In this document: piece after piece, positions 3,226 to 50,379 of the stretch
Layout of the letters: the number at the start of each line of letters is the position of its first letter
Position numbering within the stretch: position 1 is the first letter of the stretch
From: Bryoerythrophyllum caledonicum
Lineage: Eukaryota > Streptophyta > Bryopsida > Pottiales > Pottiaceae
Assembly: GCA_963971425.1 (NCBI GenBank)
Contig: OZ020525.1
Span: forward strand, 21,458,187 to 21,522,186
Direction of reading: 5' to 3'
DNA length: 64,000 nt
Notes under the pieces: generated by a model
Told to the model about the DNA's origin: nothing
The model's database searches: none
Seen by the model: only the letters and a program-made list of their open reading frames with translations
Position numbers and translations under genes: made by a program

Positions 3226-6200
3226 CTAAGGGGGGTCTTGCCTATCAGGAAGGATTTGGTTGTTTTCGATTTTGCGTTTATGCAGTAAAATAGACATGGC
3301 ATGTTGAATAGCGATGGTGTTGATATTTTTAAAGGTAGTTTTAATTGTATCAATGGGTATCTTGAAGGTATCTTCGAGAGTTTTCATAGATGGGATAAAG
3401 GTGGTGGCACGAGCGCCGGATGTGATAACAATAAGGGGGTCCACATTCCAGCCGAGGGCAATGATGTCGTCTATGAGGGGTTGGTATTCTATTTTGTTTT
3501 GTATTGTTTCCGGGGAGAATCTATCGTTGCAATATGTAAATTCGATGAATTGAATGGTGTAGTCTTGGTTGATGTTCTCGGGTGGTGGGTCGTGGTATGG
3601 TAAACCTTTGACACAAAGAATGTCCGGTTTGAGCCTAGCGTTGCAATGACATCTTTGGGTCATACATGAGCATGGAAGTAGCCATGGGGGGACCGTGTTT
3701 TCTTGTGGATTGCTATTAAAAGTGCCGGCGTTCATAAGTATGAAACATCTCGATTTATTGTAGGAGGTGATTAGTTTTCGGACTTCCCATACCGCTTTGT
3801 TATGTCTTTTAACAATTAGAGAGTGTATGTGGTGGTTTTGGCATTTGAGTAGCACATGTAGCCATGTGTCGGGGTCCGTTGAGGGGCATATGGGGCATGT
3901 TATGGATGGGAATCTTTCTATTCCAAAGAAGAGTTGTTTTCGAGCGTTTCCCATGTACTGACCCGTACGGAATTTGATGAGGCACGTTATTTGTGAGTCT
4001 GAGATGATGGGGTTTTTCCAAAAGTTTGTAGAGAGTTCATTGTCTATGTCGTTATCGTTAGTCCATTTTTCTATGTTAGGAATACTTTCTGAGATTGTGT
4101 CCAGGTTGTTGTAGAGGTCTTGTTTTTTGAGATATTTGCCCAGAAATCTAATTGGGCCTTTGTCGGGGGTATCTTCTTTGGAAGGCCAATCTTCTTTTTG
4201 AAAGTAGTATGGGGTGGCATGAGCATGTTCGTGAGGGTCTTTGGCGTTTTTGTGTGTTTTTTCTCGGCCTTCTTTTGCAAGTTTGTCTGCTTGTTCGTTG
4301 CCATCAATGTTGGCATGGGCTCTGACTTTGTGAAGGGTTGTGATTTGTGTACGTTTTTGTAACATTTGTACCATTGATGTTAGTATGGTTTGGTCGGGGT
4401 GACTGTTGTGAAGGGTTGGGTGTGTTATTTGAGTGTTTAGTAGGTAGAGTGCATTTATACAATCGGTGAATATATGTGCAGGTTCATTTTTGTATTTTGT
4501 TGTGATGATTTGTAGTGTTTTGTGAATGGCCATGAGTTCTGCTCTGAGGATATTTTGTAGTCCATGGAGTCTTTTGGCTAGTTTAATTTCTTTGGTAGAA
4601 TTATATATGCCATAGCCAGCTTTTTCTCTTCGCCAAGAGCCCGGGCTAATTTGTTCCGATGGTTTAAAGGAGCCGTCAGTGTAATAACTGTGTGCGGGGT
4701 TAAATTTTGGTGTGGTCTGAGTTGGGTAGTCTGGGAGAGGGGGAGGTATGACGGAGTAGTTTAATGTGTTGTTGTCATAGTTTAATTTTGACCATTTTTT
4801 ACTTTTGTTTACGGGGGTTTGTATGGGTGTTGGTGGGGCCGGTTTTGTGTATGGTCGTTGTATGTCTAGATTGTCTGTTATGGAGGTAAGTTCCGCAAGT
4901 TGTTCTAGGGAGCCCAGGTTTTGATTTTGATGATGGACGCATAGTATTTGTAATGTAGATGGCTCTATTCGGGGTTTTTTTAGCTCGGGTGGGATATTAG
5001 GTTCTTCGTATGGTATTGTGTCTGCTTCGAATAATGCAATGATGTGGGAATCTGGGAATGGGTTTGAATATTGGTTGTTGTTTTGGTACCAATTGTTGTT
5101 CGGTGTGACGATGATTGTTTTTGTGTTATTTGGATCGTGTTTGGCGGCAAGTCTAGCCCAATGTATGGCTTGTTCTATGTCTTCCTCGTTGTGGGGGTGA
5201 GCTATTCCATTTCCGATCCATTTGTGTTCAAAGGCCTTGCCTAGGGATCCAAATATTTTGTCTCTTTCGTACGGTGAGTAGAATTTATTTAGTTTGGTAG
5301 GACATGTGATCGGGGAGGAAAAGTATGAGTGTTCAATGTTAAAGGATGATATCAGTGAGTCTAAAATGGGGGTGGGTATTGTGTATTGCGCATTTTTGAG
5401 AGGGTCAGTTTTTGGTATTCGATATTTATATCTTTGGTAAAGCCATATTAGTTCGGTTTCAAAGGGTTGGGTTGTTGGTTCAATGTTTGTAGGGGATTGT
5501 AATTTTGTATGATATTGGTTCCATAACCATTGGAGCCGGGTAATAGATATGGTGTGTAAATGTCGGCCGTTTTCTTCGTATAGATGTGCTTGATTGTTAT
5601 TTATTTGGATTGTGTTTGAGGATGTAAGGATATCATTTTCGGGGTTGCATTCTGTTGTGTAGATGTTTAAAAGTGGGATAATTATGGGTGGCGTTAAGGA
5701 CCTTGAGTCTGAGGATTGTTCTTGTAGATGGTGGGCAAGGATGATATCTGAGTATTTTTTGTTTTGGATCTTTTGGTAGTATTGTTTTAGTTTTTCAGTG
5801 TTATGTGTGGAGGTATTAGTGTCATGCCGTGGAAAAAGGTCTCTTTGGGGGAGCCATTTATTGTATGTATTATCATTGTGTTGCCATTGGCATAGATATT
5901 TTGTGTAGGTATTTTGTATGTTATTTGTGTCTGTGTGTTGGATATGTTTATGGTTTATGATATTATTAATGGGGTATTTGGTAGGGTTTTTGGGGATGTA
6001 TGTTGGGGGGTGGGGGTGGTATGTATGTGGAGGGTTAGAGGGATTGGTTGGTGTGGGAATATTTCTTGGGATGATGTTATTGTTGAGGGTGATGAATGGA
6101 TCTTTAAGTGTATGAGAGTATGGGTGTATGTTGCAAGGAGTATGACATATAGTGGGGCATGTTATGTGGCAAAATAGTTGTTTAGCAACACTTAGGGCAC

Positions 6201-8457
6201 TCTTTATTAGTTTAGATGGGGTGAAGTGGTAGGTTTTGAAGTCCTCATTGTTCATGATGTGTATACCGTTAGGTAAGGTAATTTGGTTTAGTTCAAAAAT
6301 ATTTTTTGAGAGGAGTTTTTGTAGAAGCTTTTGGGAGAGTTGGGCATTGAGTGTGTTATGATTTAATGTTTCTTGGCGCCATAGTATTTCTATTGTTGTA
6401 GGATTAGTGAGGAAGTTCGGGAGGGTACTTTTAAGGTGGGCTTTAGCTATATATTTTAATAAGAATAATGTTCGTGTTATTGGTGATCTTATGCAGTCAC
6501 TTTTTTTAATTCTCGGTATGTTTTCAGCGCCACCATATTGGGCAAGGACATAGTGAGTTAATCCATTATATATTTTCCCAAGTCTTCCTTTATCGTTTAG
6601 GGCATTTTGCAGTTGTTCGCCTATACATCGTAGGTATGCGTTTTTGAGGGAGAAAGCTTCAAGTCCGAATAGGTTATGTGGTAGTTGGGTTATTGCGTTT
6701 GACATACATTTTGGTAATCCACATATGGTTTTTTGTATGGCTATTATTTTTTTATCAAGTTTTTTGATAGCTGGCATAGAGTATGGTACACCGTAGAAAC
6801 TGTATGCCACACCTGGGCGTAGTACGGTATCAACCATTTTTATTTTTTGTTTCATGGTGGCTGGGCATGTTGTTAGTTCTTTGCATTGTTTGATGAGCTT
6901 TGTGGTTGTAGTGTGGATTTGGATTTTCCATTTTAGTGAAGGAACAAGATTTGTCCCTAGGTATATGTATGGTTCGTTTTGGTGTAGTATAGGGATTGGT
7001 TGGTTGCGGTAGTTGATGTTAGAGGTTTGCATTAGGGCTTTGAAAGTGGTAGGGTTCAATTTAGATTTGTTTGGGCATCCGGTAACGGCACATTTTGGAA
7101 CTCCCACATCCATGCCAGCCCATTTACAATATCTATCAATTTTATGGAGTTGTATTTGGATTGATTTGATTTTGTTAGTTATGGTGGCTAGGTCATCTGC
7201 GTATGCGGCGGAGTTTATTGTGACTTGTGATGTGCCGAAAGTATATCCATTACTGCCTCTTTCTAGCCATCTAAGTAGTGGTTCTAAAAATATAATAAAT
7301 AGGTATGGGCTAAGGGTGTCCCCTTGTATAGTTCCTCTTTGGATGGGTATAGGTTTTGTTTTCCCAAAGTGTTCGCCGATATAGCAAGTAGATGATTGGG
7401 AATAGATGTTTCCAACAAGTGTAGTTGCCTCTTTTGGGTAGCCAAGGTCTGACATTATTGCTAGAAGTCTGGCATGATCAATTGAGCCAAAGGCATTTTT
7501 GAAGTCCACGTATAGTATGTATATATCTTGGTTAGTAAATTTTGCGTCTTCTAATGCGGCTATTATAGTTTGTATTTGCCGTGCGGTACTTCTCTCCGCT
7601 CTAAATCCTTCTTGACTATCATGTAGGATTTTGAATTTTTCGCCGTATGAGGATAGTATGTGGGTGAGTGTACTAGTAAAAAGCTTATATATTGTGTTAG
7701 CTAGTGCAATTGATCTATGATTGGGTAGCATGGATGGATCGCCTTTTTTGTATAGTAGAATTGTTGCACTTGTTTTCCATGAATTTGGTATTTGTTTTTG
7801 TTTATAGCAGTGAGAAAAGAATAGGAATAGTAGTTTATGAAATCTTGGGGGCATGTTTTTGAGTATTGAGTTTGGTATGCGGTCTGGGCCTGGGGCTTTA
7901 TTATTTCCAAGATTTTGGAGGCATGTGTCGTATGTGGCTCTGTTGAGGTATTTATGTAGTGGAATTTCTGGTTCGCCCCGTTTGTCAAGGGTATATCCGT
8001 CCAGGTCGTGCCAAGGGTATTGGCGTATTGCACATGTGCATTCTATTGTATGTTGTGGCTGGTAATTACATGTTGGTACTGTTGGTCTATTGGTTTTTGT
8101 TTGTTGGTTGAATATTTCATTCGCAATATCTTCGGGGCTAGTTAGAATATTATTATATTGATCTTTGATACAATCCATTGGTGGGAATTCAAGATTTTTA
8201 AAGACTTTTTTGTTAATTTTTTTGGGGCTGATTTCGTATAGTTGTCTGTATTTTGAGATGGCTTTTTTAATGTTTTCTTTTGTGTATTTTGTAATTATTT
8301 TCCGGGCTTGTATGTTGGCATTTTTTGCAATTATCGCGATATCTTTTATCCATGTATCGTGGGGAAAATCCGGAGGTGGCGGGGTAGGGATTTGGATGTG
8401 TTGAATAGTTAGTAGTTCGTTGTGTATGGGGTGGTTACGCCATTGAGGATTGTTTTT
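3226..8457 (-). CDS. LINE ORF2, C-terminal part: reverse transcriptase, RNase H, possible second nuclease
   Basis: The catalytic half of the LINE polyprotein. It copies the RNA into DNA at the target nick. From the first Met (8178) it has 1650 codons, but the frame is open to 8457 and joins the endonuclease frame through a +1 shift at the A7 tract, so 8178 is not a true start. Reverse transcriptase motifs lie at about 7760-7040, with AYADD at about 7189-7206. RNase H (about 4690-4240) shows YTDGS, RAELMAI, FTDC and a late Asp (NIDGNEQAD), so all four acidic residues are present. A Cys/His cluster (CPICPSTDPDTWLHVLLKC) follows near 3900. The C-terminus has LKPDI and, about 30 residues on, IEFTYCND, which resembles a PD-(D/E)xK nuclease with the Lys replaced. 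That last point is inference. The stop is at 3226. Confidence 0.85.
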   Translation of the reverse strand, partial: KNNPQWRNHPIHNELLTIQHIQIPTPPPPDFPHDTWIKDIAIIAKNANIQARKIITKYTKENIKKAISKYRQLYEISPKKINKKVFKNLEFPPMDCIKDQYNNILTSPEDIANEIFNQQTKTNRPTVPTCNYQPQHTIECTCAIRQYPWHDLDGYTLDKRGEPEIPLHKYLNRATYDTCLQNLGNNKAPGPDRIPNSILKNMPPRFHKLLFLFFSHCYKQKQIPNSWKTSATILLYKKGDPSMLPNHRSIALANTIYKLFTSTLTHILSSYGEKFKILHDSQEGFRAERSTARQIQTIIAALEDAKFTNQDIYILYVDFKNAFGSIDHARLLAIMSDLGYPKEATTLVGNIYSQSSTCYIGEHFGKTKPIPIQRGTIQGDTLSPYLFIIFLEPLLRWLERGSNGYTFGTSQVTINSAAYADDLATITNKIKSIQIQLHKIDRYCKWAGMDVGVPKCAVTGCPNKSKLNPTTFKALMQTSNINYRNQPIPILHQNEPYIYLGTNLVPSLKWKIQIHTTTTKLIKQCKELTTCPATMKQKIKMVDTVLRPGVAYSFYGVPYSMPAIKKLDKKIIAIQKTICGLPKCMSNAITQLPHNLFGLEAFSLKNAYLRCIGEQLQNALNDKGRLGKIYNGLTHYVLAQYGGAENIPRIKKSDCIRSPITRTLFLLKYIAKAHLKSTLPNFLTNPTTIEILWRQETLNHNTLNAQLSQKLLQKLLSKNIFELNQITLPNGIHIMNNEDFKTYHFTPSKLIKSALSVAKQLFCHITCPTICHTPCNIHPYSHTLKDPFITLNNNIIPRNIPTPTNPSNPPHTYHPHPPTYIPKNPTKYPINNIINHKHIQHTDTNNIQNTYTKYLCQWQHNDNTYNKWLPQRDLFPRHDTNTSTHNTEKLKQYYQKIQNKKYSDIILAHHLQEQSSDSRSLTPPIIIPLLNIYTTECNPENDILTSSNTIQINNNQAHLYEENGRHLHTISITRLQWLWNQYHTKLQSPTNIEPTTQPFETELIWLYQRYKYRIPKTDPLKNAQYTIPTPILDSLISSFNIEHSYFSSPITCPTKLNKFYSPYERDKIFGSLGKAFEHKWIGNGIAHPHNEEDIEQAIHWARLAAKHDPNNTKTIIVTPNNNWYQNNNQYSNPFPDSHIIALFEADTIPYEEPNIPPELKKPRIEPSTLQILCVHHQNQNLGSLEQLAELTSITDNLDIQRPYTKPAPPTPIQTPVNKSKKWSKLNYDNNTLNYSVIPPPLPDYPTQTTPKFNPAHSYYTDGSFKPSEQISPGSWRREKAGYGIYNSTKEIKLAKRLHGLQNILRAELMAIHKTLQIITTKYKNEPAHIFTDCINALYLLNTQITHPTLHNSHPDQTILTSMVQMLQKRTQITTLHKVRAHANIDGNEQADKLAKEGREKTHKNAKDPHEHAHATPYYFQKEDWPSKEDTPDKGPIRFLGKYLKKQDLYNNLDTISESIPNIEKWTNDNDIDNELSTNFWKNPIISDSQITCLIKFRTGQYMGNARKQLFFGIERFPSITCPICPSTDPDTWLHVLLKCQNHHIHSLIVKRHNKAVWEVRKLITSYNKSRCFILMNAGTFNSNPQENTVPPWLLPCSCMTQRCHCNARLKPDILCVKGLPYHDPPPENINQDYTIQFIEFTYCNDRFSPETIQNKIEYQPLIDDIIALGWNVDPLIVITSGARATTFIPSMKTLEDTFKIPIDTIKTTFKNINTIAIQHAMSILLHKRKIENNQILPDRQDPP

Positions 8458-8656
8458 TTACAATTCTAATGGTTTTACGTATGGTATGGTATGTGGTTAA
8501 GTGTTGTTTCCAAGTTTTAGAAAGTTTGCGGGGTAGATACCCGCCTTGTTGAGAGGTTCTGTTTGTCATTTGGGGTATTGGGTGTGCTCTACAAGTTTGT
8601 TCTAGTGTATCAGAGATTTTATTGATGAGTTTGTCTAGAGAGTGGCATGCTTCTTG

Positions 8657-30561: not shown

Positions 30562-32424
30562 TTGGACAATGAAATATCGTTTGATTTTCCACGTTTAGAA
30601 AGCGATGGAGAAGAAGACTATGTTGATGAAGTAGATGGGAATTCAGGAGCCAAGCTTGGACCCTTTTCTATTTTTACATACTACATATCATTCTTTCAAG
30701 CGAGAGTTGGCAAATTACCTTGTAAATTGGAGCAGGGGGAGGGTGGAACTATCGGTGGATACTATTATTGCTTTAGACGAGAATTTTGTCCGTCAAGAGC
30801 AAGTTCCAATGGAAACATGGCAGAAATCCATTTTAAAGAAATGGGGAGTGTATGGAAGGAATTTTGGGGTACGAACACTTGTAAGTGGCGAGGAACGTTT
30901 CTCCAATAAAAATGTGTCACATCTCAATGTTCCATATATTGATGAATGACCTTTGATTGTAAAGGTCGCGCACCATGGAGGGGGGGTTCATTTGACATAC
31001 AAAGACACAATTTCAAGGATTGGAGAATTGGGATGGCTTGTGGGTACACAATTGAATGGCATTCCAAAGCCATTCATTGTTAAAGGTTATTGAATCTTGT
31101 GCACGGTGTCAAATTCGAGAACAAGGTTAAAGAAGAACAGTTTGACGTTATCGACAGTACCCCGAGAGGTATGCAATGCCATTGGCCGAATTGAAGGCAT
31201 TCATGAATAATTTGGCGGCCCAATATGAGGTGGTTTCAAAACCCATTCATAGATATAAAAGAGTGGCATCTTATCCTCATGAAATGATGATTTTTGTATG
31301 TCACCGGGGACGTAAATTCCAAGGCAAAACAACTTGCTATGATGACGAAGGTGGTAGAGTGCAGCAATGCTCTACTGCAAAATATGTGGATTTTAAATTT
31401 TGTGTGAGGATTTTACAACCTATTGAAGAAGGACAAGATGTTGAAGTTCATGTGAATGCCGAGCATAATGGTCATGAACCGGGATCCAAGACGGATAGTT
31501 GTTTTTTACCCATTCATGAAAGTGCAATAGGTAATTGTACCGAGATGTTAAGTAATTTGAATAACATCCAATGTGCCTTGATTCATTCCAAAAGGTGTGA
31601 AGAAATTTTATGACATGCAGCTCCATTGCATGAACAAAAAACATATCGTTTCTTTTTAGATGCTAAAGAAGCCTCAAATTTGTCGTATAAGCTACTGATG
31701 GAAGAAAGAGGCGGCGGTGATGACTATGATAAGGTTGTAGAGACAGTTCCAAAACGGGTAGAGAAGATAAAAATGATCTTTTTTCAAGCATATGATCCTA
31801 TGAACCCAGATCCTAATAAGCGGCCGTTTGTATTAGTAATTCAAACGGAGGAAATGGTAGAAAGGGCAAAGACTATCACCCCTAATTCAGCATGGGTGAT
31901 AGATTCCACTTTCAAAACAAACCAATGGGGCATGCCATTGTTTGCGCGGGTGTGCCCTAATAGAAGCGATTTGGGCATGCCCGTATTTCTCATGCTATGT
32001 AGTAATGACAACAACAGTGGCCAAGTGCAAACGGCGTTGTGGCTCACTATGAAGGCTGTGTTTCGAAACATGGACGATATCCGACCAAATGCGATTGTGA
32101 TTGACAAGGACAAAATTTCAATGAATGCTATTAAAAGAGCAATTCAAGAAGATGTTTGATGTTGGCAAAACCAAGAAATTGGTGGAATCCAAACAAAATA
32201 TCAACTCTTACTGTGTTGGTTCCATGCAAAGAAAGCATGGGTGGAACATTTGTTGTTTAAATTGCCCGAATCAGAGCGCAATGATTTGTACAAGAAAATG
32301 TCTGGTATGTTGGAGGCGGTTACCAAGGACGACTTAAACACAGCATATGAAAGGTTCAAGACAAAGTATGCCGCTCACAGCGGTGTATTAAAGTATGTTG
32401 ATAAGGGTTGGACAGGTAACAATA
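30562..32424 (+). pseudogene. MULE (Mutator-like) transposase gene, 5' part, split by insertion
   Basis: Broken frames read in order give an acidic N-terminus, a Cys/His-containing region, and an MULE transposase core. The first catalytic Asp is in WVIDSTFKTNQWGMPLF (about 31902) and the second in IVIDKDKISMNAI (about 32104). In-frame TGA codons at 30947-30949, 31611-31613 and 32157-32159 and frameshifts near 30700 and 31090-31176 kill it. The frame stops at 32424 where the inverted repeat of a large insert begins, and resumes at 44709 with the third catalytic residue (Glu of NTTNLVER) and the SWIM finger. MULE transposases bind their terminal repeats and cut and paste the element. Its own ends were not found. 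Confidence 0.85.
32421..32424. repeat. Target-site duplication (AATA), left
   Basis: AATA here and at 44709-44712 flank the inverted repeats. An equally good reading shifts the boundary by one base, giving a TAA duplication. Removing the insert plus one copy restores the MULE frame in either case. Confidence 0.7.
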
Positions 32425-32455
32425 AACACGCAATTAAGCAATTATGCACTTGGCC
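32425..32455. repeat. Left terminal inverted repeat, 31 bp
   Basis: Exact reverse complement of 44678-44708. Its inner end overlaps a perfect 16-bp palindrome, GCACTTGGCCAAGTGC (32446-32461). Confidence 0.95.
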
Positions 32456-33015
32456 AAGTGCGCTAATTGGCGCTCAATAACAACAAGATTTTGAGCGGAA
32501 ATGTCTTTTGGAAGGAAAAAAAATCCGACAATCCCTATTTTTTCTTTGCTTTATTTTTGTGACAATTTCATTGAACATTGGTTTCTCAATGTGTACACAA
32601 GTGAATCATTTTCACCATTTTGGTAAGATTATGCATAATATATAATTATGGTATTTCGTTTTTATTCCATTGACAATATTACATTGACCATGTACTTACA
32701 AGAAACTATTCATATATAATTTGTTGCATGAAATAAAGTTTATATGAATTTAAATAAATTTTAGTGTCGCGTTACAAATACAATTTATAGGAGATGTAAT
32801 GATAAAGCACGCAATACAATGATGAAGTGTGAGGTTTAAAACTCTATATTTTTCAAATATATAAAACTATACATGATATAACTATTGAATACTACAAAGA
32901 TCATATACTACAATCAAACAAACCTTCTCTAAAGCAAATATACCAATCACACTGTACTAGTCACCTAAACATCACGTATGCTTAGCTACGGTATGACCTC
33001 AGAGTCTTCATCATC

Positions 33016-36000
33016 CTATGGCGATATTACTCCTGTAGCGTGTTCCATGGCAGTATTTACCATTTCAGCCAACTCCTCTTCTCGCACCAGACTATCTCCA
33101 AGACTGACTGATGTAGACTGTTCATATCTGTAGCTGTCAGGGTCGCCGTGCCGCGTGTGCCTTACGCCATCTGCATCATAATAGAAGCCATCTCTAAATG
33201 TCATCGGCGTAGTGAAGGTCTCCCGAAATTCAGCAACATCTTCCGGTTCGCTCTGTCTTGAAACAGATGGCAATATTGGTCCAGTGCCACCTCCAATACC
33301 TTCAGCGCTCCCATGTGTCGTAGATCCAAGCTCTGATGGAGCAGGCCCTAAAGACTGTCCACCCCTACTCAACTTCGAAAAAAACATGAGAGAATCGGTC
33401 GTACACTGCTCTGATTCTGACAGCTGAGAAATGGATATGTTCATCCCATCTGTTGGTGCCTCTGAAGGAACATCCAGTACCCTGGTATCATCCCCCATTC
33501 CAACAGGTGTCTCATGTACACAAACTCCCACATGCGGCGGCGGCGTTGTTAGAACCACGTCTCTCCTAGGTACTCCCCCATCTTCACCTTCGTCTTCCTC
33601 TACATCATCCTCCTCGTCTTCCCCTTCTTCTGCTTCACTGCTTCGTTGCGAGTCGGGCGAGCGACTGTCAGGCGTGGATTCGTCCGTCCCATATTCACCT
33701 GGCAATCTTTCGTTCAAATGGGTGTAGAAATCCACATCATCGTCACCTTCCGTTCGTAAAGGAATCGCATCTTCGGTAGCATCTACACTAGTGGGAGCAT
33801 TGTCCGTTCCATCGATGTTGTTAGACATCAACAAATGCCCTTGGAAGTTGTTGGACAACTCACCGTACTAGAACGAAATCCTCTCGCTGCAATTGTCAAT
33901 GACAATGATCTCGAATCCCTGAAAATTCGAGTGTAGTATAGTCGGAATCGCTGTTGACATGTTACATACCACCAAACCCCAACCCAGAGGCAAGTACGAA
34001 TCCACCACTCTTGATAACTCAGATGGAGATCTCTCGAGAGCATCAACAGCAGAAGGCTCTCGTGCTTCACCACGCTTATCATCAAATAAAAGAGGAAGTG
34101 GACGGCGGCCAGTAATAAAGTTTGCCTCAACAGACAATCCAACTGGATGTTGAAGACAAATAATGATATCGCCTATTGGTTCAACTGCTTGTTGTAAGCG
34201 CCCTCCCTCTGTAAAGTTCAGAGGATGATCAACCGAGGTCTGACCAAACGCCCAACATCCACGCCGATAAAAGGAACCCTCCGGGAGCTTCAACTTCGTA
34301 ATCAACTCTTCGGTGGCGAACACGGCCGGTGGTAATAAGAAAATGACGTTCCATCGTTTGACGGTCGTCATTCATATGCCAGTTGTGCAAAGATTCTAGT
34401 GAACTGTTCATCTTCCCAATGATTGTTGCCATGCCTTCCACCGCCACGGCGACAATCAATAATCCACAGGTATGGCCGTGTCAACTCTACATACTCTGAA
34501 CGGAATAGTCCTCTTCTACACCGAATCAGAAGCGGATCTTGTGTGTCATTCTCGCCTGGCCTCTGAACATGCAACTGCCACTCCCAATTGGTAGTGTTTG
34601 CAACTCCCTCACATACGGATGGTGCATTTTGGCCTTGCCCCTTTGCTGCAACAATCTGATAATGTACCTTGATGAAAAGAAGGACGAGGTCGCTTAGGTC
34701 TTTGAGCTTCGACACCTTCTCTTGCTACGGCGCACTCCATTTGGTTCTTGTTTTGCTATCCAAGAGCTCGGCAAATTTGTCAAGTTGCTCCTTGCCTCCT
34801 GGCAAATACTTCCGTATAGATATACGAAAATCTCTTCCATGGAATTCGGTGAAGATTCCTTGTTCTCTACCATCAACCAGCGAATGGTATTTATCACCGC
34901 TTCTCGTCTCATAATGCGCTCACATACACCGGCAAGGATACGAGTCCTTGGATTTTGGTCTTTAATGCCGTTGAAATAAAGTGCTTGACGAGGTCTACGT
35001 CCATCCTCGCCTACTAGCTTAGCTGTACAGGCCTTTGCAACCTCCAGATAGTACGAATCTGGAAGTCTCCCAAGCGGCCTCAACCAATGCCCGGTCATCC
35101 GCTTCCGCCTCGGTCGAACATCCGCATTCGGATCCAAGTTCTTCTTCAGTGCCAAAGCCTTCCACCTCTTCTCCTCATCCTTGTTGTAAAACAAGAAGCC
35201 GTTTTCGAGTCCTTGCTGACTTGAAGGGCAACTTCAAAGCACTCATTGCTGGGATTCCAAGCATGATTGGTTAGGTCCTCCATGATCTTTGCCAGTTTGA
35301 ACATTGTAATCTTGTTGTCATCTCTGTCAGGCAGTTTCCGCACGGCACTTGCTGCGCTCACCAGTGCGATAGCCCTATGTTCATTGTCCGTTCGGACCGA
35401 GCTATCAGGCCTACCATACAGATCCCATATCTGTCAGAGCTTCACCAAATCTTCATTCATGGTGGAAAGTTGTTTTCTTTGCCACTCCGCATTATTGACC
35501 TGTATTGACTTGTTAATGTAAAGTCGTCGATCATCATACACAACAAAGGTAGCCTCTTGTTCCTCAAACGTCTTCTGATACTCAGACAGAGGGATGTTGT
35601 CGCTCATGCACTGCTCCTTCGCATACTTGCAAGCAGCTACAACGTGTTGCCCGTCCACAGGCTCCCAAATGATACGCTCTTGAAACCAAGATAGTTGAGA
35701 GCCCGCAGTACCGTGTATAGAAGCACCCGCATGGCTTAAGAACATCCGTTCAAACTCTCGTGCTGCTTCAGTAACTGGGAAATCCACTCCCTCACGCTCA
35801 ACCATGCCAGTGTCGGTAGTGATATCCACGAGGTACCGGATTGGACGAAGTACCAATTTACTCACTCCGGTCCTGTTCTAGGGATCTCGTAAGAAGTGAT
35901 ACACTTCTTATTTCCTCTTCTGTGACAGAATCCGATGGTTTGTCTCCGGATTCACCACTTCGACGATGCGGTCAATGTGCGCCTTGAACACAACGTCGCC

Positions 36001-37088
36001 CCATATAGAACCTCTCGCAACTTCCTCCTTCGTAGGTACTGGCGCTTTCAAATGCCTAGAAGTTGGAACGGTTGCTGGAATGTCTGCCTCCTCCTCCAAA
36101 TCTCCCAATGACTGATCAGAAAAGTTGTGCAAGTCGTCATCCATGGAAGACAAACTCACAGAGACACTCGCTGTAGATGTTGAGTTTCGGCTTGTCCAGC
36201 TATCGATTCACGGCCCCTGCCACGCGATGGCGATGTCCTGCCCCGCGACGTCGATGCCCTGGCACGCAATGTCGAGGCCCTGCCACGTGATGTCTCAGAG
36301 CGGCCATGCGATGTCTCTGAACGGCCACGCGACGGCCGTCCATCAGAATCTGGAGCTATGTTGCCCTCTTCACGTCGTGGCCGCTAAGATGGACGACCAC
36401 TTGTTGGTGCACGAACACGTGATGGTGGCAGTTCAGTGGACGGCCGCCAATCCAACTGTGTCGGCCTTGCTAACGCGCGATAAATGGGCTCGGTCTCCTC
36501 TGGATCCGCTAGTAGACTTGCACGCTCAACACTTGCACGCTCTGGCTTCGTCCGCCGTAATGCCTCATACATGGTATGAGCACTCATAAATCTTCTAGCG
36601 CGTGCCTCATCGTCTTCAGATTACGCCAAACATGCCAACACATGCTCATGCCTAGCAGTGCGCACCGCAAGATCCGTGCTGAGCCAAAACGTCTGTAAGG
36701 AGGTTATGTTATTCACCCGCCTTGAATTTTGAAGGAGATCTGTATGAACAGGTGCTAGAAGCAACTTCTTTGAAAGACAAGTCTTTGATGCCGTTTGGCC
36801 AACCCCCGGTTCGCAAACTGCATATACCATATCGTCTGGTCGAAGATTAATTGCTCGAAGTTCAGCGAAGGGTTTCCCCAATGTTGATGTGCGCATCCCA
36901 ATTTGAAATGGATGTTCCGTGAGCCACAATACTGGCTTCGACGCCGCGTCTACTGCAATCCACCAACCATACTCCTCCCAGCCCCTTTCGATTGGAAGTG
37001 GTGGTGCCATGATGTCACATACAAGAAACCTAATCATAATCACAAACAATATACAATCGTCAATACGGTGTATGTTCATATACATCAA
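33016..37088 (-). pseudogene. ParB-like / DNA-methylase-like gene inside the 12.3-kb element (broken)
   Basis: Minus-strand frames follow one another with short overlaps: 37088-36621, 36587-36384, an Arg/Ser-rich stretch to 36160, 36159-35908, 35865-35434, 35361-35146, 35194-34694, 34715-34368, 34371-33868 and 33858-33016. WEPVDGQHVVAACKYAKEQ resembles a ParB/sulfiredoxin-type DGQHR motif. The later block IIDCRRGGG...WEDEQFTRIF...WNVIFLL sits where a methylase DPPW motif would be, and GWGLVVCNMSTAIPT...GFEIIVIDN where motif I would be. Both catalytic motifs are degenerate. The C-terminal 280 residues are acidic and disordered. At least one TGA (35434-35436), one TAG (33868-33870) and several frameshifts are seen; some gaps could be introns. 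The family assignment is by eye and tentative. Confidence 0.45.
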
Positions 37089-37376
37089 TGCTTACACCTT
37101 CTAAGAAAAATACACAAAAGCATCATGTTACAACTCAAATGTGGCTTCCTTGACTTGTAAAGGTAAACCCCTAATTTTTAAGACTCTACAACATGTCAAT
37201 TTTTAAAATCATTAGTCCAATTTTTTTTTCTTTCCTACTAGATGAAAACACACCTAAAAAGTTCAAATCCGAAGTCGAAATTCCAAAAAAATTATTATTT
37301 TGGAAGTTATTAACTCACTGTTAAGTGAATCTGCGCAAATTACAGTTTCATCCATAAAAGATGAAAATCGTAGCAC

Positions 37377-37542
37377 GGATGAAAACAGAGGATGACGATT
37401 CACAGCTAATGGAAAATCACAACGGATGAAATTTGTAAAAACAACGGATGAGGAGGCAAAAACACAGCGGATGAGAAGGCAAAAAATCAACGAATGAAAT
37501 TCCAATAAAGGGATGAAAACAATGGATGAAAACTTGCGGATG
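37377..37542. repeat. Cluster of GGATGA motifs
   Basis: GGATGA occurs eight times in about 165 bp (near 37378, 37390, 37424, 37446, 37469, 37511, 37524 and 37538), mostly as CGGATGA with irregular spacing. Confidence 0.8.
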
Positions 37543-38461
37543 AAATGCCAGAAAGTGGCTTCCGCTCTAAATCTGAAATTAATATGCAATTAAAGAATTA
37601 CGGACTTGGCTAATTTTAGCAAATAAACCACAAAAGTATGCCCGGATTTTTTTACAAAAATTTTACAAATTTTTTTGAATTTTTTTCAAATTTTTCATAT
37701 TTTCAAATTGGAATGGAAAGTAGGCTTCATAAACTTCAATTCATTATTTGGACTCAAAATCACAAAATATCATGTTAATGACTGAAATTCAGATTTAGAG
37801 CTGGAGCTAGAATCTACGAAATCGGAAGAAATTCTGCAAATCTTCACTATGGTGATTTCAGCGACCTTTAAGGATTTTTAGAAAAAAGAGAAAAAATAAA
37901 AAAAATCCGAAAAAAATTGGGATGATACCTCCAGATTCAATCTACAAGGGAAAAAAAATTCAAGTTGTTTTGAATTGTTGAAAATTACTAATAGGCATTT
38001 CAGTTTCATCAAGATCTGTGGAAAAAAAACTCTTTTTTTTTTTTTTTTTTCCCTTACAACGATACAAGGTTTGACCGGGTATACGACTGGATCAGGTTAT
38101 GACCGGATATATGACTAAATAATGGGTATCAACGAATTCTGGAAGGGGTATCAACCAAGAGCAACGGCACGATCAACAGCCCCTTGCGTACGCAGGGGTC
38201 GTAAGAGAGTTGAGCTCGCTCATCATTGCCGACGCCGAATCCTAGCCCGCCCACACTGCCAACGCCGCTCTGACCCAAGCTGCTTTCATACTACAGACTT
38301 CGATACGCACAGCACATGGAGGAGAGAGAAGGAGAGAGATGAGGGTGAAGTGAGGAGAGAGGACTAGTAGATTAGTTAGGACGTTTGCAAGTTGGTGATG
38401 TTGCTTGCAAGTTGGTGATGTAGCTTGTAGGTCTAGGGTACGTTATTCACTCATCTACTCG

Positions 38462-38695
38462 CAGGTTGTTCACGCGGCTTGGAGCGTTACTCACTCACAG
38501 GTTGTTCACGTAGCTTGGAGCATTACTCACTCACTCACAGGTTATTCACACAGCTTGGAGTATTACTCACTCACTCACAGGTTGTACACTTGCACCTCGT
38601 TCTCTGGGTGAAGCCCTAATACACCCTAGGAGAAACCCTAAGACACCCTAGGTGAAAACCTAAGACACACTAGTCGAAAACTAAAGACACCCCCG
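38462..38695. repeat. 36/40-bp tandem repeat followed by CACCCTAG repeat
   Basis: CAGGTTRTTCAC recurs at 38462, 38498 and 38538, with a partial copy at 38578; the spacer carries GCTTGGAG and repeated CACT. Then ACACCCTAGGAGAAACCCTA-type units recur about three times to 38695. Confidence 0.8.
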
Positions 38696-40963
38696 CATAC
38701 GCACCCCCCTGAGGTGAGAAGTCCAGCCATGAAAATGGGGTTGCCGCCGAAATTAGGGTTCCAAAAATTAGGGTTTCCAGATCGCCGACAAAGATTAGAT
38801 AGTTAGGGTTTTCAGATGTAGTGTCTCATGTTTTCCAATTAAGTAATGACCCAACCTTAACCCCTAAACTGAAGTTCACAGGATATAACGCAAACAAAAT
38901 TAAATTATAAGTAGTTTAGAATGGTTGTGCACATGATTAGTTTAGAAAGGACGTGCTACTCTTCGCTTTGAACCTGCAATCACATAAAAACTAATGAACA
39001 ACATGATAGGATGAAGTAGAAATCTTGACCATCTAAAAACATCTAAAAACATGATATGTGGAGCTCACCTTTGGATGATCGTAAAAAAGAGACTCACTAT
39101 TATGAAATGGCTGCCTTATATGGATTTCTAAACTTTGTGGTTAACTACTCTATTTTTATACATATACCAAATATTACTTTATTTTAAGAATATTACCTTG
39201 TGGTCAGACACTCTACTATTATACATATAAAGAATATTATTTTATGGTCAAACAATCTACTTTTATGCATTTAAATATTACCGTCTTTTTTCTTACCAAA
39301 AAATAATTTTTTTAGTGTAAAAAGTACATTTTAACCCAAGTCGAACATTTTTAGACATTTTGAGGAAGGGGGAAAAAACTTGTTTTCCACATAAAAACTA
39401 GTGATCTTCGAAATCTTTGCCATTATTTTTTTTTACCACAATATGTGGTGAAAACCTTAGTATCAACCGTTTGGATTATCAAAAGTATTCCATATTTGTG
39501 TTAAAAAAAGGTAAAACGTGAATTGGTAATTTTTCATTTCTTTTCGATTAGACGTCAAAATTAGATGCTTTGCCACTTTTTAGTTGTGGTAGTTTTGGGG
39601 TGTTTCTTGATGGAAAAAGGCTTGGAAATTTAGGGGTTTGTTCCTTGAGGATACTTACGTTCATTGAAATTTTAATATAAAAATCTCCTTCATAACAACT
39701 TTTTGGAGGTATTTAAATTTTTGTACTTGGGTTGATTTTTTGAAAGTTAGTTCATACCTAATATTGGAACTTACAACTTTTGCTATTACTCTCTATTGCC
39801 ATTAAGATTTTCCATACCCATAAAGGAAAAATAAGACTTTTAGAATGGACTAGAAAATAATTATTATATTTTGTGTGAATTTCTAATTGTATATAGATCT
39901 AAATGTGAGTCAAATGTTTTCAGGAAAATGATTGGAAAAAACCATACCTTCTATAGTAAAAAAAGCTTATAAATCTTCAAAGCATTCCCTTCTACTGTTT
40001 TTGATATCTATTAGTGAGAAATTTCTTCTTAACCCTTACAATTGTCATTCTAGAACATATTAACATTTTCAAAGTAATATATCAGGATGTAGCAAATATT
40101 GAATTTGTATTCATTGCACATTATTCTTGTAATACGCTTTTATTTTCTACCTCTTAAACTTGGTTCTAAGGAACTAACAAAAACTATTAACAAAAAAATA
40201 GAATATTTATACTTTCTTTAGTGCAAAAATGAAATACAAAGTGAAGTCAAATTTGATCCTATACCTTTAAAGTAGGGATGAGAATGAATCTTTTCCTCAA
40301 CTTCAAACCTTATAATCTTTTAAGCTGTACGGCCAACAATTATGTCCTTTTGATAATTATATTGATCAATGAATCATTGTTGAGATGTAATAATTAGGAC
40401 ATCAAATAAATGTTGTTGACTTCTAATTTACACTTTGGAGTAGGATCAACAATTAGTACCTATATTTAATGTAAAATCGTAAATGAATTTTAGGAGTTGA
40501 TATACGAAGATTTTAGGTTGTTTTCATCATGTGTTATATAATGACACTAATGTGTTTGTTATAGTCAGGTCGTAAAGATTTTGGAACGAAAAGAAGAGCA
40601 TAAGTTTTGGCAACGAGGACTGATTGGTGATATCGTCATATAGAGCGGCGTTGAACTCCGGTACCACGCCCTCTGATACTCACAATTAAAAATCCAGGTC
40701 AGGAATACCTTCTTATACCGATATGATGGCTTTTTGGATGTATCATATATATCGTGCTTTACATTGGATCACTTGAAATTGCAATTTTGTCCAATTAGCT
40801 CTGCTTGTGAATCTTATAAATGATCAATCATTATATGTGAGAGTATAAGTATATGTCTATGAGTGAGTAGTCTATTGGATGAATGATGCTTTTGAATTGG
40901 AAAAATATATATATATTTTGATAATTTCTCCACTATCGTATCTATATTTGTCAAATAGTATCG

Positions 40964-43900
40964 ATGGAAAGCGGAACATCCCATATTCCTTTAGAACCTC
41001 CAAACATTCGCAGATCAAATATCCTTCATAATAGTTCAGTGGGGGCTCGGTTGATACGAGCAGCACGGGCGCGCCAAATTCAAGAGAGATCGGTTGGGAT
41101 AGGTGATTTTGAAGCGGGAAGGACTGTAGAATTGCTCTCCAAAATAGGCATTGTCGTGGGTTTGGCAAAAAGGGAGCATGCCTTTGAAAGTGGAATGGTA
41201 TTGCATGGATGTAGAATGTTTCCATCTGAGGTGGCAGTGCGTATAATTCAGGTTGACAATGCATTACATTGGACAAGAGAAGTTGTGGGTGAACGGCTTG
41301 GTTCATGTATGGACTTGATCATTCGTTGGAACCGGTCATTGCTTCGTGACTTGGCCACAACACCTAATTTTCCAAATGCCCATGGTGAAGATAGATCTCA
41401 TATTTCACCTACATGGACAATGGCCCTAGGATTTGATGTTCAAGGGCAATCTATCACCCCCGAATTGAATGAAAGATCTTTGTGGAGTAGCCAAGCTTTA
41501 AACCCCGTTGATGAGAGTTCACCATTTTCTCAATGCACCCCCTCTAACATTCGAGATTTGCCCCATGTGGAGGGATTTGCTCACGTTAGAACAACGCGCC
41601 GACCTTATTCTATGCAGAATAGAAGAAGGATAGTTTCAAACGAGTCAAATGTGACAGGAACTGCAGCAAGTAAAGTATCTTTGGCAAGTGTGGAAAGGAC
41701 AATAGCACAGGGAGGATGCAAGCAAAATTGTTTGAGGGACATTTCAGCTAGGCATATTTTAGACATGCGATATAATGCTTGGACACCAGAGTATTCAATC
41801 CGAAGTACATGGATAAGACAAATGTTGGTTTCTTTTTATACACGAACGGAAGGATTTTGTCGGGATAAATTTGAGACGAAGTTAGATGGCAGGTGTGTTT
41901 GCAATGCTTGCTACGCTCTTGGGGTTGGTTATTCGCAACGGCGTTTTAAGGAGTTGAAGAAAGATTGTTTTATATACGGTGGAGTGATGGCAATCCACGG
42001 TAACACACTATCAAATCCGATTAGAGAGAGCACTAGAATGTGTGCTGCAGAGGCTTGCTTCAAATCATTTGTGGAAGAAGCTGGATGTCCTCAACCTCAT
42101 CGTTCTATTTGCCGTAAGGATGACTACACAGTCGTGCCTCTTATTCTCCTTCCAATGAATACAATAAAATTTGACGTATTCAATTACGTGAATGAAGAGG
42201 TGAAGAGAATGTGCAATGGAGAAACCATTTCAATTAGCTCGTTCCATAGGATGTGGCGTTTGAGATATCCCCATGTCCAAGTTCCACCATTCTCAAAGTT
42301 CTCAAAGTGTTATCATTGTTGGGAATATAAATGTGCTATGGAGGGAACAACCAATGCCGATGCAAGGATTAGGATCAAAGAATTGTTTATGTTGCATCTA
42401 CGCATCCAGATGGAGGAACGTAGGCATTATTGGATATTCAAGAGGTCATGTTATATCCACCCTGAGTTGTACATGTGCATCATTGTGGATGGCATGGACC
42501 AAAACACGACCATGGTACCAAGAATGCGTCAAACCGTAAAGAACATTGAACACTGGTTTGTGAAGACCCATCTATGCGGGGCTCTAGTACATGGAATCGG
42601 TTTGTATTGCGACGTATGGTTTCGAGCTCACCACAAACATGACAACAACGAGGTCGTGAGCACATTGTTGTATGTGATTGGAGACGTGTTGCGGAGGAAG
42701 GGATTTTTGCCACCAACATTGCGCATCCAAGCAGATAATTGCACCCGTGAGAATAAAAACATCTATATGTTTGCTCTATACGCATCCTTGGTGGGATTGG
42801 GATTTTTTCAAGAGGTGGAACTCTCTTTCCTTATAGTGGGCCATACACATGAAGATATTGATCAACGCTTCAGTTGTATATCAAGTACTTTGAAGAGATC
42901 GGACATGGAATCCTTAAAAGAAATGCTTAACCTTATAGAATGGGGAACGTCTCCTACGGAGGCATTTATCACTGCACGGCTGTTAGAGAATGTGTGGGAT
43001 TGGAAACAGTTCATAATACCCCACCTACTAACAGGTCCGGATTCATTGGTTGGCATAACATTTCCACACCACATGCGATTCTATATAGATGATAGAAATG
43101 GGACCCACGAGGTTCGAGTACAACACAAACATTACTGCAATGATGCTTGGGGACCGGAGACAAGGACAAAGACTTTGAGGTCGTTGCCAAGTAGAGATGA
43201 GCGACCAGCGTTTGCAAATGTGTTTGCAGCGGACGAACGGGAGCTAAAAGCGTTGGATGAATTCATTGCCTATAAACAGAGGTCCATTGAAAGATTGCAA
43301 CATGTGGAAAGGAACCGTGATGCTAAAGTGGAGGCCGAGAAATTGAAATTATATTTAGCCAAATTTCCACATAAAGACCGAAGCAACGAGCATCATTCTT
43401 TACCATTTTGGCCTTCAGATGTGTCCAATACCGCAACTGCAGAACGTGTTTCATTTGATGAAGTCAACGGCCCAGACGACGAAAATCGCGAAGTAACCGT
43501 CGTGGACCAAATTGTGGCTATACTTCCAAATGCAGACTCTCGAGGATATTTTGGTCTGCGTAGAGGAAGACCATGGAATCAAGCAGTGCGTAGGGCGCAA
43601 CAAACGGAACGCAACAATGTTCAAGAACGAATCGAACAAGGAGCAGGGGATGAAGTTAATCACGACCCGTTTCCACCATTCAATCCACAATCAGATATTA
43701 ATTGTGGACAATTTGTAGCCTTAAGTGTTGATAGAGCTGAGGTTGAAGGTGGTATACCATTCTATGTTGGGAAGGTGATTGAAAATGGGAAAAATCAAAG
43801 GAGTCATAAGATGAAGGTTTGTTGGTATTGGCCCATCATGCAAAGAGAAAATGTTGCGAGAACAGGGTCCACCGCACAACGATATGCAAATTGCATGGAT

Positions 43901-44152
43901 GCATTCTGGGAGCCCACGTGTGAGAGCCATAGGTGGGTAGAGAAAGAGGCATGCATCTTTTCGTGGATAGACGAACCTGAGAGAACAGTGGCTGGCGCTT
44001 TCCGGAGGAGAAAGCGAAATATATTCGGATCGCAAGTTGAAAGCAAGATTCGGATTTTTCAGTCGGCTAAGGCTCACATACTAGAATATATTGCAATGCA
44101 AACCGAAGCAATTGACGATGAGCGGTTGCAAGCAACCTTGAATGATATGTAG
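40964..44152 (+). CDS. Putative DDE-type transposase (DUF7869-like), 1062 aa, intact
   Basis: A single uninterrupted frame, much the longest intact gene in the nested element and so its likely transposase. A Cys-rich segment in the first third (DGRCVCNACYALGVGYSQRRF) recalls the VCxxxFLxxxGIS motif of DUF7869-type proteins. The core has acidic residues in RNase H-like order: D509 (IIVDGMDQ), D591 (LRIQADNCTRENKN) and H627-T-H629-E630-D631-I-D633 (VGHTHEDIDQ). The C-terminal third has a basic coiled segment (~770-815) and an SH3/Tudor-like block (QFVALSVDRAEVEGG, FYVGKVIE). The ATG at 40964 is the first in frame and lies beside an AT-rich upstream region. I recall the DUF7869 family from mosses, algae, oomycetes and animals as uncharacterised. 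The DDE role is inferred from motif order and the inverted-repeat context. It could instead be an accessory protein. Confidence 0.7.
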   Translation: MESGTSHIPLEPPNIRRSNILHNSSVGARLIRAARARQIQERSVGIGDFEAGRTVELLSKIGIVVGLAKREHAFESGMVLHGCRMFPSEVAVRIIQVDNALHWTREVVGERLGSCMDLIIRWNRSLLRDLATTPNFPNAHGEDRSHISPTWTMALGFDVQGQSITPELNERSLWSSQALNPVDESSPFSQCTPSNIRDLPHVEGFAHVRTTRRPYSMQNRRRIVSNESNVTGTAASKVSLASVERTIAQGGCKQNCLRDISARHILDMRYNAWTPEYSIRSTWIRQMLVSFYTRTEGFCRDKFETKLDGRCVCNACYALGVGYSQRRFKELKKDCFIYGGVMAIHGNTLSNPIRESTRMCAAEACFKSFVEEAGCPQPHRSICRKDDYTVVPLILLPMNTIKFDVFNYVNEEVKRMCNGETISISSFHRMWRLRYPHVQVPPFSKFSKCYHCWEYKCAMEGTTNADARIRIKELFMLHLRIQMEERRHYWIFKRSCYIHPELYMCIIVDGMDQNTTMVPRMRQTVKNIEHWFVKTHLCGALVHGIGLYCDVWFRAHHKHDNNEVVSTLLYVIGDVLRRKGFLPPTLRIQADNCTRENKNIYMFALYASLVGLGFFQEVELSFLIVGHTHEDIDQRFSCISSTLKRSDMESLKEMLNLIEWGTSPTEAFITARLLENVWDWKQFIIPHLLTGPDSLVGITFPHHMRFYIDDRNGTHEVRVQHKHYCNDAWGPETRTKTLRSLPSRDERPAFANVFAADERELKALDEFIAYKQRSIERLQHVERNRDAKVEAEKLKLYLAKFPHKDRSNEHHSLPFWPSDVSNTATAERVSFDEVNGPDDENREVTVVDQIVAILPNADSRGYFGLRRGRPWNQAVRRAQQTERNNVQERIEQGAGDEVNHDPFPPFNPQSDINCGQFVALSVDRAEVEGGIPFYVGKVIENGKNQRSHKMKVCWYWPIMQRENVARTGSTAQRYANCMDAFWEPTCESHRWVEKEACIFSWIDEPERTVAGAFRRRKRNIFGSQVESKIRIFQSAKAHILEYIAMQTEAIDDERLQATLNDM

Positions 44153-44677
44153 TAAAGGAGGATACTACAATGAGTGTATGGTGTATGGTGATCGGCATGT
44201 AGGGTATATGCAAGAGTAGTCTACCACAAAGGTTATGTAAGGGGTTTAGTAACAATTGACCAATAAATCCGAGAGGTTTTTCCCATTGTTTGATTACATC
44301 ACCAAGTACAAGAATATATGCAATATGTTGATTTTCTTCTTCTTATGTACCATGTTCCATGTGTAATATATTCAAATCAATTGCCATTCATTGCGCAGTG
44401 TTTTAGTTTACATAATTGCGTATTTTGTATTATTACTTGACAAGCTTCTTTCCAAAAACATGCTACTGAGTATGAAACAAATATTTATCAAATTCTAACC
44501 AAGTTCCATATCAAATTTGTCAAAAATGCCAAAAAAACTTATTGAATTAATATTTTTGGTTATATTGAAAATTGTTCTCAGATCCTAATTTAAAAAAAAA
44601 TAAAAACAGGAAATCAAACAAAACTTCATTTTTATTCAACGCATTGGCTTCCGTTGTCACTAAGTGCACTTTTAAAA

Positions 44678-44708
44678 GGCCAAGTGCATAATTGCTTAAT
44701 TGCGTGTT
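44678..44708. repeat. Right terminal inverted repeat, 31 bp
   Basis: Exact reverse complement of 32425-32455, followed by AATA at 44709-44712. Confidence 0.95.
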
Positions 44709-45980
44709 AATAGTCTTTGGAAACGTATGTGGCCTAGATGGGCTAGGATGTTCAAACATGGACATGCCAATACAACAAATCTTGTAGAACGCATGTGGCA
44801 ATATGTCAAATATACCTTGCTAGATGGGAAAGTTAATCGAAGACTTGACCAGCTTATCTTTGCACTAATAGGTAGCTCGGATAATGGTCGACGATTTGGT
44901 GGAATGACACTAGATGAGCATTATAATGATGTTCATTGATTGAGTGTGTCGGGGAAGTACTCGCTTAGAGGAAGAGATCAAGGTCGGACATCAAGGTTAC
45001 AAAAAACGAAGAAATTGGTCCAGAGAAATAAAGAAGATCGGTCTTCAAATCTGGAAACAATTGACGAGTGTCACATAGAATTTGCATTTCGAAGTCAATT
45101 CGTGGCGAACAAATGATATATTGTTAGTTTATCTCGCGAATGGTGCAAGTGTAACGATTATGGTCCCATTTGTAAGCACATGTTGGCGTTGAAGTAAATT
45201 ATTGATGAATAATTTCAACACCTCCTTGACTTGTTGCTAAGTATATATGAACCTCATGGTTTCATGCATGAGTTGGAAGATCCAAGTGAAGGTTCAAATG
45301 AAGATTCAAGTGGAGGTCCAAGCGGAGGTCCAAGTAGTGGTCCAAGTGATTGCTCTAGCAGAGGGCCAACATTAAATCCAAATTGTGAGGTTGATTTTGT
45401 AAGGGAGATGATTCTAAAGATATCAAATGTGACGGCATCAACAAATATTCCTAGGGAAAGGTATGATGCTTTGACTATGGAGCAATGTGAAACGATCAAG
45501 AGAGCAGGACAAATGTTTCTAGGAGTAATCCAAGAGAACTTGGGCATAGGATCACGGCTAAGTATAATCTCACTGCCAAGGGAGGGTGGAAGTATCACCC
45601 CTATCCAAGCCCATGTTACAAATACAAGACTTGGACATTCTAGTCACAAGAAGAAGAAAAAAAAATTGAATTATGAAGACTTATATGGTATAGAAAAACA
45701 TGTGCTACAATTACAAAGACCGGGTGGTGGAATTAAAGTTCTATGCCGAAGACAACTTGTACAAAAGAAGCGTACAAGGGTGAAATTTCCAAGGTTGTGT
45801 CGAGAAGAATGTCCAGATTGTGAAGGACTCAATATATTCTTTGATGGGAGAACAATCGTTGAGTGTCACAATTGCCAATGTGTGATTGCAAAAAGTAGTG
45901 ATAGTGTTGCTCGAGAAGAAGAAGGATGTGAAGGTGCACCAGATGTGGAGTTATTTTTCAAAGATTTGAATATCTATTAG
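44709..45980 (+). pseudogene. MULE transposase gene, 3' part
   Basis: Continues the frame broken at 32424. SLWKRMWPRWARMFKHGHA leads into NTTNLVERMWQYVK, with the third catalytic residue (Glu). A SWIM zinc finger (WCKCNDYGPICKHMLALK, about 45142-45197) follows, then a C-terminal domain at 45231-45980 with an SGGPSGGPS-type linker and a Cys cluster (CREECPDCEGL, CHNCQC). Stops in the expected frame lie at about 44936, 45114 and 45196, and more follow before 45231. The SWIM finger is typical of MULE/FAR1-type proteins. Confidence 0.85.
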
Positions 45981-49147: not shown

Positions 49148-50379
49148 ATGATGAGCAAGCTCGCGCTGCTCCTGGCCTTGGCCATTGGAGGACTCGCCCT
49201 GTGCAACGGCCAAGTAGGTACGTGTGTTGGTCCTCGATGGTGCCTCGCCGTCACCTGTGGAACTACTTCTGTCTGAGATCGGGACGATGTCCGCCTGCTT
49301 CGGTCACGTTTATTGCCGAAGTTGGCCGTCACTGTGCGTTGCGCACTACTGATGTCCATTACTTTGGTACTGTTTTGTGCGACTGTCTGCCTGTGGTCCT
49401 GTGGTGTCAAGGTCGATCTTGCTTAAAATTGTGCTTGATCATGATCGTTTCATTGTGAGCAGATTTTCCTTCAACCTTTTACACCTGCACTGGAGGCGGC
49501 TTCGCTTATGAGAGCAACAACGGTCTGGATGTTGTTCCAACCTGCGCCGCTGGGTTCGTCTTATGCCGAACGGATGGTCTAGGGGGCCAGGGTCAGGATT
49601 GTCCCGGCATTGGTTTGTGTCCAGCTATTTGTACCGATGGCAGCGTACTAATTCTCACTGATTTTAACGGCACAGTCACCGTTGCGACTTCGGGTGGGAC
49701 GGTGGTGAAAGTCACTGGTATCTTCAGGGGTTACGGCTCCTGTCACAACGCCTACTGTAATGTCTTTGAGGACGGCATGATACCGACTGCTCCCAGCGTT
49801 GTCTCGAGTGGCCTGACTTGTTTCTTGGGTTATGCGGCCATCTGCTACACTCCCGGTGGGCTACTCTCTCCTCCGCTTCCTCCCTCACCCCCGCCTCCTA
49901 CTCCCTCACCCCCGCCTCCCCGCTCCCCACCCCCTCCTCCACGAGTCTGCCAGAGCGACAAGAAGAAGGTGACGTTTAAATGGAAGGGTTCTCCTGTGAA
50001 GGACGTCAGCCTCTGCCCTGGAAGTCCTCTTCCAGACAAGAACAAGTACACAGCCAAGGATAATTGTGGCAATTACCTGCGAGTGAAGGTGCTCGATAGC
50101 TTGAGGCGCCCGAACCGCGGGCCGTGCTGCAGCATGACACGCACCCTTACTGCGCAATGCGGGAATTCGGAGGTCACGAAGAATCAGAAGATCACGTTCG
50201 GGGACCGGGTCACCTTCAGCTCTAGCCGCGGGGCCGTCAAGGCAAGGTGCAAGTGTAGAAGTGGGGAGAAAGTGTTGACCCCGAAGAACTTCTACAGAAA
50301 TGGGAGGGTGTTCAAGGCTGTGTACAAGGTGAAGGACGTTTGTGGGATAGAGCACACAAAGACCGTGACAAAGTACTAG
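49148..50379 (+). CDS. Secreted Ser-Pro-rich cell-wall-type glycoprotein, two exons
   Basis: Exon 1 (49148-49217) encodes a signal peptide, MMSKLALLLALAIGGLALCNG. A GT-AG intron (49218-49462; donor GTACGT, acceptor GAGCAG) joins it in frame to exon 2 (49463-50379), giving 328 residues. The mature protein has a Cys-rich N-terminal domain (~115 aa with ~10 Cys), a linker of SPPPP type (SPPLPPSPPPPTPSPPPP), and a basic Cys-containing C-terminal domain (~140 aa). Two globular domains around a hydroxyproline-rich rod is the layout of pherophorins and related green-algal wall proteins. I do not recognise the globular domains as the pherophorin domain itself, so the call is by architecture. Pro residues in the linker would be hydroxylated and glycosylated. 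The frame is intact and GC-richer than its surroundings. Upstream DNA is duplicated at 29.4 kb. Confidence 0.8.

Follow-up and report, generated by a model that had tools for sequence, protein, structure and literature searches.

Which kind of element interrupts a MULE gene in the moss Bryoerythrophyllum caledonicum, and which of its proteins moves it? We have studied this question in a window of 64,000 nucleotides (contig OZ020525.1, positions 21,458,187–21,522,186 of the forward strand), where a transposon of 12,284 bp is found on the plus strand at positions 32425–44708 of the window. It contains a gene with the domain of unknown function DUF7869 and the remains of a second large gene on the opposite strand. 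We consider it rather likely that it is a recently active two-gene cut-and-paste DNA transposon, which would have its home in the Sola superfamily or in a close sister of it. An initial annotation, made from the sequence alone, had described it as a mobile insertion and as a possible new superfamily.

Ends, insertion site and copies in the genome

The element has perfect terminal inverted repeats of 31 bp, in the coordinates given by the initial annotation. The left one, AACACGCAATTAAGC...CTTGGCC, is found on the plus strand in positions 32425–32455, the right one on the minus strand in positions 44678–44708. A 30-base core of this end occurs twice in the window and never in 100 shuffled versions. 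The motif AAGTGCA is present four times in the element: one copy at each end (32445–32451 and 44682–44688) and two in a palindrome, AAGTGCACTT, which adjoins the right end in positions 44662–44671. These motifs may be binding sites for the transposase.

On both sides the element is flanked by AATA, in positions 32421–32424 and 44709–44712. The first part of the host gene (31614–32424, plus strand) has a MULE domain with an E value of 6e-10 in the frame 31614–32159; from 32160 onward it is open in a different frame. The second part (44713–44939, plus strand) is in frame with the first until its stop: when 32424 is joined to 44713 the frame stays open until a stop near 44937, so that the restored frame described initially is confirmed. 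With 172 bases of the joined flanks as a query for empty sites we obtained 15 matches. The window itself matches as two halves, bases 1–105 and 102–172 of the query, which overlap by the 4 bases AATA. The target duplication is therefore 4 bp, and of the 3 or 4 bp first proposed only the longer value holds. Thirteen other places in the genome match across the junction; the match is almost complete in 11 of them, and nine have at least 90% identity. The two partial matches cover bases 23–172 and 57–172. The nine places with high identity have the same length as the query. With an uninterrupted match to the joined flanks, these places are empty sites.

In the genome searched (437 Mb, 894 contigs) the core of the end is found 1,810 times with up to 3 mismatches, 887 forward and 923 reverse, while the reversed control is never found. 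With two ends apiece there would be about 900 elements. Many copies are shortened; among 100 exact ends listed, contigs C1 and C2 have 10 pairs of neighbours separated by 2.2 to 21.6 kb, two of them by 12.3 kb. Ten further long copies (a1–a10) were picked, eight of them by DUF7869 matches similar to that of the window and two by end pairs at 12.3 kb. They measure 12.26–12.36 kb, and all ten align with the window element from end to end, within 6 bases, with 93.7–94.9% identity. Seven of them have 99.0–99.4% identity among themselves, which indicates that the family has moved recently. The window copy has 94.7–95.5% identity with the rest over aligned columns and is probably a separate, older branch of the family.

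The duplications of these copies were judged by eye, with the ends set at 31 bp. Eight of the 11 copies (window, a2, a3, a4, a7, a8, a9 and a10) have a perfect 4-bp duplication; in a7 the final base of the right end differs. The duplication of a5 has 5 bp, and the ends of a1 and a6 are altered. A second family with DUF7869 genes (L017–L020, L023 and L024), with 45–48% protein identity to the first, has a different end, AACATGGAATTC..., which was identified by comparison of two copies. There are 138 such ends in the genome, and ends of this kind lie next to DUF7869 genes of this family. We picked 10 pairs of them, three of which are known to contain a listed DUF7869 match. Seven pairs show a perfect 4-bp duplication (AAAT, CAAT, TAAT, TTTG, AACA, CACC and AGTA); one is off by a single letter, one has no duplication and one has mutually inverted flanks. 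When both families are pooled, 15 out of 21 duplications are perfect, with a chance of about 3e-31 for a fixed boundary, and their composition is 78% A+T. A third family (L010, L014 and L016) has ends of the style AACA...TGTT, 15 in the genome, and L015 has an end of the same style, from one copy only.

Thus the copies, the shared ends and the empty sites demonstrate a mobile element; the initial annotation had proposed to look for both further copies and empty sites, and both are present. A transposon with terminal inverted repeats is characterised by many scattered copies that share their inverted ends, and by a duplication of fixed length which is single at the empty sites; both features are found here.

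Some peculiarities of the distribution of these families were also observed. In contig C1 there are 23 exact ends of the first family in the first 12.8 Mb and only two in the region from about 12.8 to 62.05 Mb, which may be a region different in kind. All 15 ends of the third family lie on contigs C30 to C772, with none on C1–C15: perhaps they come from an unassembled region or from another source of DNA. In the second family, the pair with inverted flanks (C3, 28589990–28600810) has reverse-complementary flanks, as though it lay inside an inverted duplication. Nested in another element of that family (L084 and L085), at offset 4199–8601, lies a shortened 4.4-kb relative of the first family with both of its ends.

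The two genes of the element

The putative transposase gene is found on the plus strand in positions 40964–44152, with an ATG at 40964, and codes for the 1,062 amino acids already annotated. In Pfam its only match is DUF7869 (PF25273), over about 185 residues with an E value of 5e-49, and it has no match in NCBIfam, PADLOC, PHROGs or the PDB sequences. A search of the genome with this protein gave 3,602 first-look candidates; 150 of them were scored and all 150 passed the cut-off, about 66 (counted by eye) with stop-free frames of at least 1,044 amino acids. In 11 of the 19 matches listed on contigs C1 and C2 an exact end is found 1,580–1,622 bases downstream, in the correct orientation, when the expectation for each is 0.0014. 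The link of DUF7869 with a defined transposon, proposed initially for this locus, thus holds for this family and likewise, with ends of their own, for a second and a third. It had been expected that DUF7869 genes of other species would lie between inverted repeats; within the same genome the genes of other families do lie beside such ends. No relatives of the protein were found in viral contigs. Among prokaryote assemblies relatives are found on three short contigs binned as Bacteroidetes (L061, L062 and L063), with broken, intron-like frames; they are probably eukaryotic contamination of these bins. No inverted repeats were seen clearly bracketing the DUF7869 gene on these contigs, which have only 4.5–6.4 kb.

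The DUF7869 protein is very probably the transposase, as indicated jointly by the copies of the element, the constant spacing between gene and end, the empty sites and a second family whose ends are different. The presumed catalytic residues of the protein were studied in two alignments, one with 19 proteins and fragments from the same genome, the other with nine sequences which include two distant relatives (26–29% identity). The first alignment shows no change at D631 and D633 and almost none at D591; in the second one, none of the nine sequences departs from D509, D591, D631, D633, H627 or H629. The aspartates named in the initial annotation are thus conserved. Its third candidate residue, E630, was rejected: it is replaced by S in L022, which has an open frame of 1,044 amino acids, and in the distant L062, and by K in the fragment L014. 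Since E630 varies whereas D631 and D633 are kept, the motif reads best as three aspartates (DDD), namely D509, D591 and either D631 or D633. A crude Chou-Fasman average places strands ahead of D509, D591 and HTHEDID and misses most of the expected helices; it is too weak to count.

The second gene lies in the left part of the element, on the minus strand. In the window its remains occupy positions 33016–37091, as open pieces of 283, 167, 179, 147 and 156 amino acids, and the window copy is unable to make the protein in one piece. Four sister copies (a2, a3, a8 and a9) have it as a single open frame of 1,363–1,377 amino acids. Its length is 1,349 in a4 and is shortened to 1,284 in a5, while a1, a6, a7 and a10 have it broken. 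The DUF7869 gene is therefore the only intact large gene of the window copy, as annotated, and not of the family. Its own frame of 1,074 amino acids is open in a1, a2, a4, a5, a7 and a8, shortened in a3, a6 and a9 and broken in a10. A genome search for the second protein listed 36 matches (34 of 5,156 candidates were scored), eight of them full-length and stop-free.

Between copies a7, a8 and a9 the ratio of nonsynonymous to synonymous substitutions (dN/dS) is 0.28–0.32 for the second gene and 0.36–0.46 for the DUF7869 gene. In pairs with the window or with a10 it is 0.36–0.51 and 0.42–0.69, respectively. In the second gene the third codon positions vary most in all six pairs examined. As judged from these comparisons of copies, purifying selection acts on both genes.

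The second protein has no match in Pfam, NCBIfam, PADLOC, phages, plasmids or viral contigs, and its matches in PHROGs and PDB are at chance level. In particular, no helicase or nuclease match is found in Pfam, either for it or for the transposase. A stretch DGQH...AA, noted by eye, suggested a ParB-methyltransferase, which was not borne out: there is no Pfam match to the ParB-like and N4/N6 methyltransferase domains that such a protein should have, and the comparison with seven phage DNA methyltransferases and YhdJ by hhalign was not significant, with probabilities of 0.08 and 0.49% at a low power (Neff 1). An eighth phage stretch, L089, did not enter this comparison. Of the four phage proteins in this set which had been taken for ParB fusions, only that of phage phiH shows a visible ParB part. 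In a 17.3-kb copy of the second family 10.5 kb were searched for the gene, and only a short piece of it came to light, inside the nested relative of the first family.

From these features we propose the following mechanism. The rightward gene would code for a DDD transposase of 1,062 amino acids, with the DUF7869 domain as its catalytic core. It would bind the 31-bp ends, excise the element and insert it into AT-rich targets through staggered cuts of 4 bp; shortened copies would be carried along. The leftward gene would provide a partner protein of 1,363 amino acids, perhaps a DNA-binding accessory, which may aid binding or evasion of silencing. If movement requires it, this protein would be a partner of a DDD transposase not described before.

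Two other frames of the window should be mentioned. A reverse transcriptase frame of the type found in long interspersed nuclear elements is found on the minus strand in positions 3226–8457; between its RVT_1 and RNase H domains it has a match to PCIF1_WW (PF12237, E value 1.5e-10), a domain known from an mRNA cap adenosine methyltransferase. On the plus strand, in positions 49459–50379, there is a proline-rich frame with SPPPP runs and no Pfam match, which presumably resembles algal or plant cell-wall proteins.

Classification and known systems

The available part of PMC10741241 describes Sola transposons by a DDD transposase, 4-bp duplications and ends of 11–1,124 bp; most have 2–9 kb, some over 15 kb, and they are present in the moss Physcomitrella. 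The element shares with them the 4-bp duplication, DDD at the level of sequence, 31-bp ends and a 12.3-kb size within these ranges, and its occurrence in a moss. The host genome gave 49 matches to the WRKY domain, a sign of the green plant lineage. The same source gives 7–12-bp duplications for Mutator (MULE) and a TA duplication for Tc1/mariner; here we find 4 bp, AATA. No Pfam match to a Gypsy-type integrase, as in Ginger, appears at an E value of 10. We conclude that a giant Sola with two genes is the probable identity of the element, although the chance of a separate superfamily is real. The papers listed by searches on Sola with transposon or plant terms showed no description of it, where an account under a different name could escape. 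Since Sola-type transposons are not common in flowering plants, according to the same part of PMC10741241, it is of interest that near-identical full-length copies of such an element are now available.

Several observations weigh against this interpretation. The assignment to Sola is a match by description, based on class traits, and the transposase has no second match in the databases mentioned above. The choice of the three catalytic acids is not fixed, since E596 is also invariant in the nine sequences. A perfect 4-bp duplication is absent in six of the 21 copies. Eight of the 19 DUF7869 matches on C1 and C2 have no exact end among those listed: two (L011 and L022) belong to divergent families, and for the other six the listing of exact ends may have missed an end. 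The dN/dS of the transposase gene is higher in pairs with the broken copy a10 (0.48–0.69), and the codon-position bias of its changes is weak. Finally, the searched stretch of the second family did not yield the second gene, which may therefore not be general.

Among other explanations, the one which survives best is an independent superfamily of DNA transposons. It would comprise the DUF7869 elements, stand outside Sola and be marked by AACA...TGTT ends, duplications of 4 bp and a DDD transposase, and its first family would have in addition a second large gene. We consider it possible, clearly less probable than an assignment to Sola or a close sister. The transposase matches no named family, and ends of like form are found in four families of the genome (that of L015 from one copy). 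DUF7869 and PF25273 are not named in the literature searched, where an element under another name would escape notice. On the other hand, DDD with a 4-bp duplication is precisely the available description of Sola (PMC10741241), so that the new superfamily suggested initially remains a tentative idea, and a Pfam DUF name carries no superfamily information. In its wider form, a separate eukaryotic superfamily, some of whose members are two-component with a 1,363-amino-acid protein of new fold, and which has lately spread in a plant-lineage genome as 12-kb and shortened copies, the proposal is a shade more doubtful.

It is improbable that the transposase comes from another known superfamily with 3–5-bp duplications, such as Academ, Ginger or a divergent CMC/Chapaev. 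Academ and Chapaev have duplications of 3–4 bp, and Academ has an accessory helicase or nuclease. Ginger1 duplicates 4 bp and Ginger2 4 or 5 bp (available part of PMC10045372). These lengths are compatible with ours, and CAC follows AA in the end; but the duplication begins outside AACAC and not at CAC, and Pfam gives no integrase match nor, for the second protein, the helicase or nuclease match to be expected in Academ. It is hardly credible that the second protein is the transposase and DUF7869 its cargo: the gene is open in four of the ten sister copies and under selection, but families with different ends retain a DUF7869 gene beside the end, the search of part of the second family did not reveal the second gene, and the D, D, D pattern is present in DUF7869.

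A giant Sola or a close sister of that group remains our preferred assignment, and its comparison with known systems is as follows. The Sola superfamily, as described in the available part of PMC10741241, appears there without a second gene of 1,363 amino acids. A parallel is Sola1-1_Ec32 of the brown alga Ectocarpus, which the available part of PMC12477816 also describes as giant and as carrying one more large gene, antisense to that of its transposase. It differs in its size, 21.5 kb instead of 12.3 kb, and in its extra gene, a ParB-methyltransferase of 1,104 amino acids, whereas the second protein found here did not match phage DNA methyltransferases significantly. With the Pfam family the element shares the DUF7869 domain itself, which there is a name without a function and here is linked to the ends of a transposon: a domain of unknown function thus gains a likely one.

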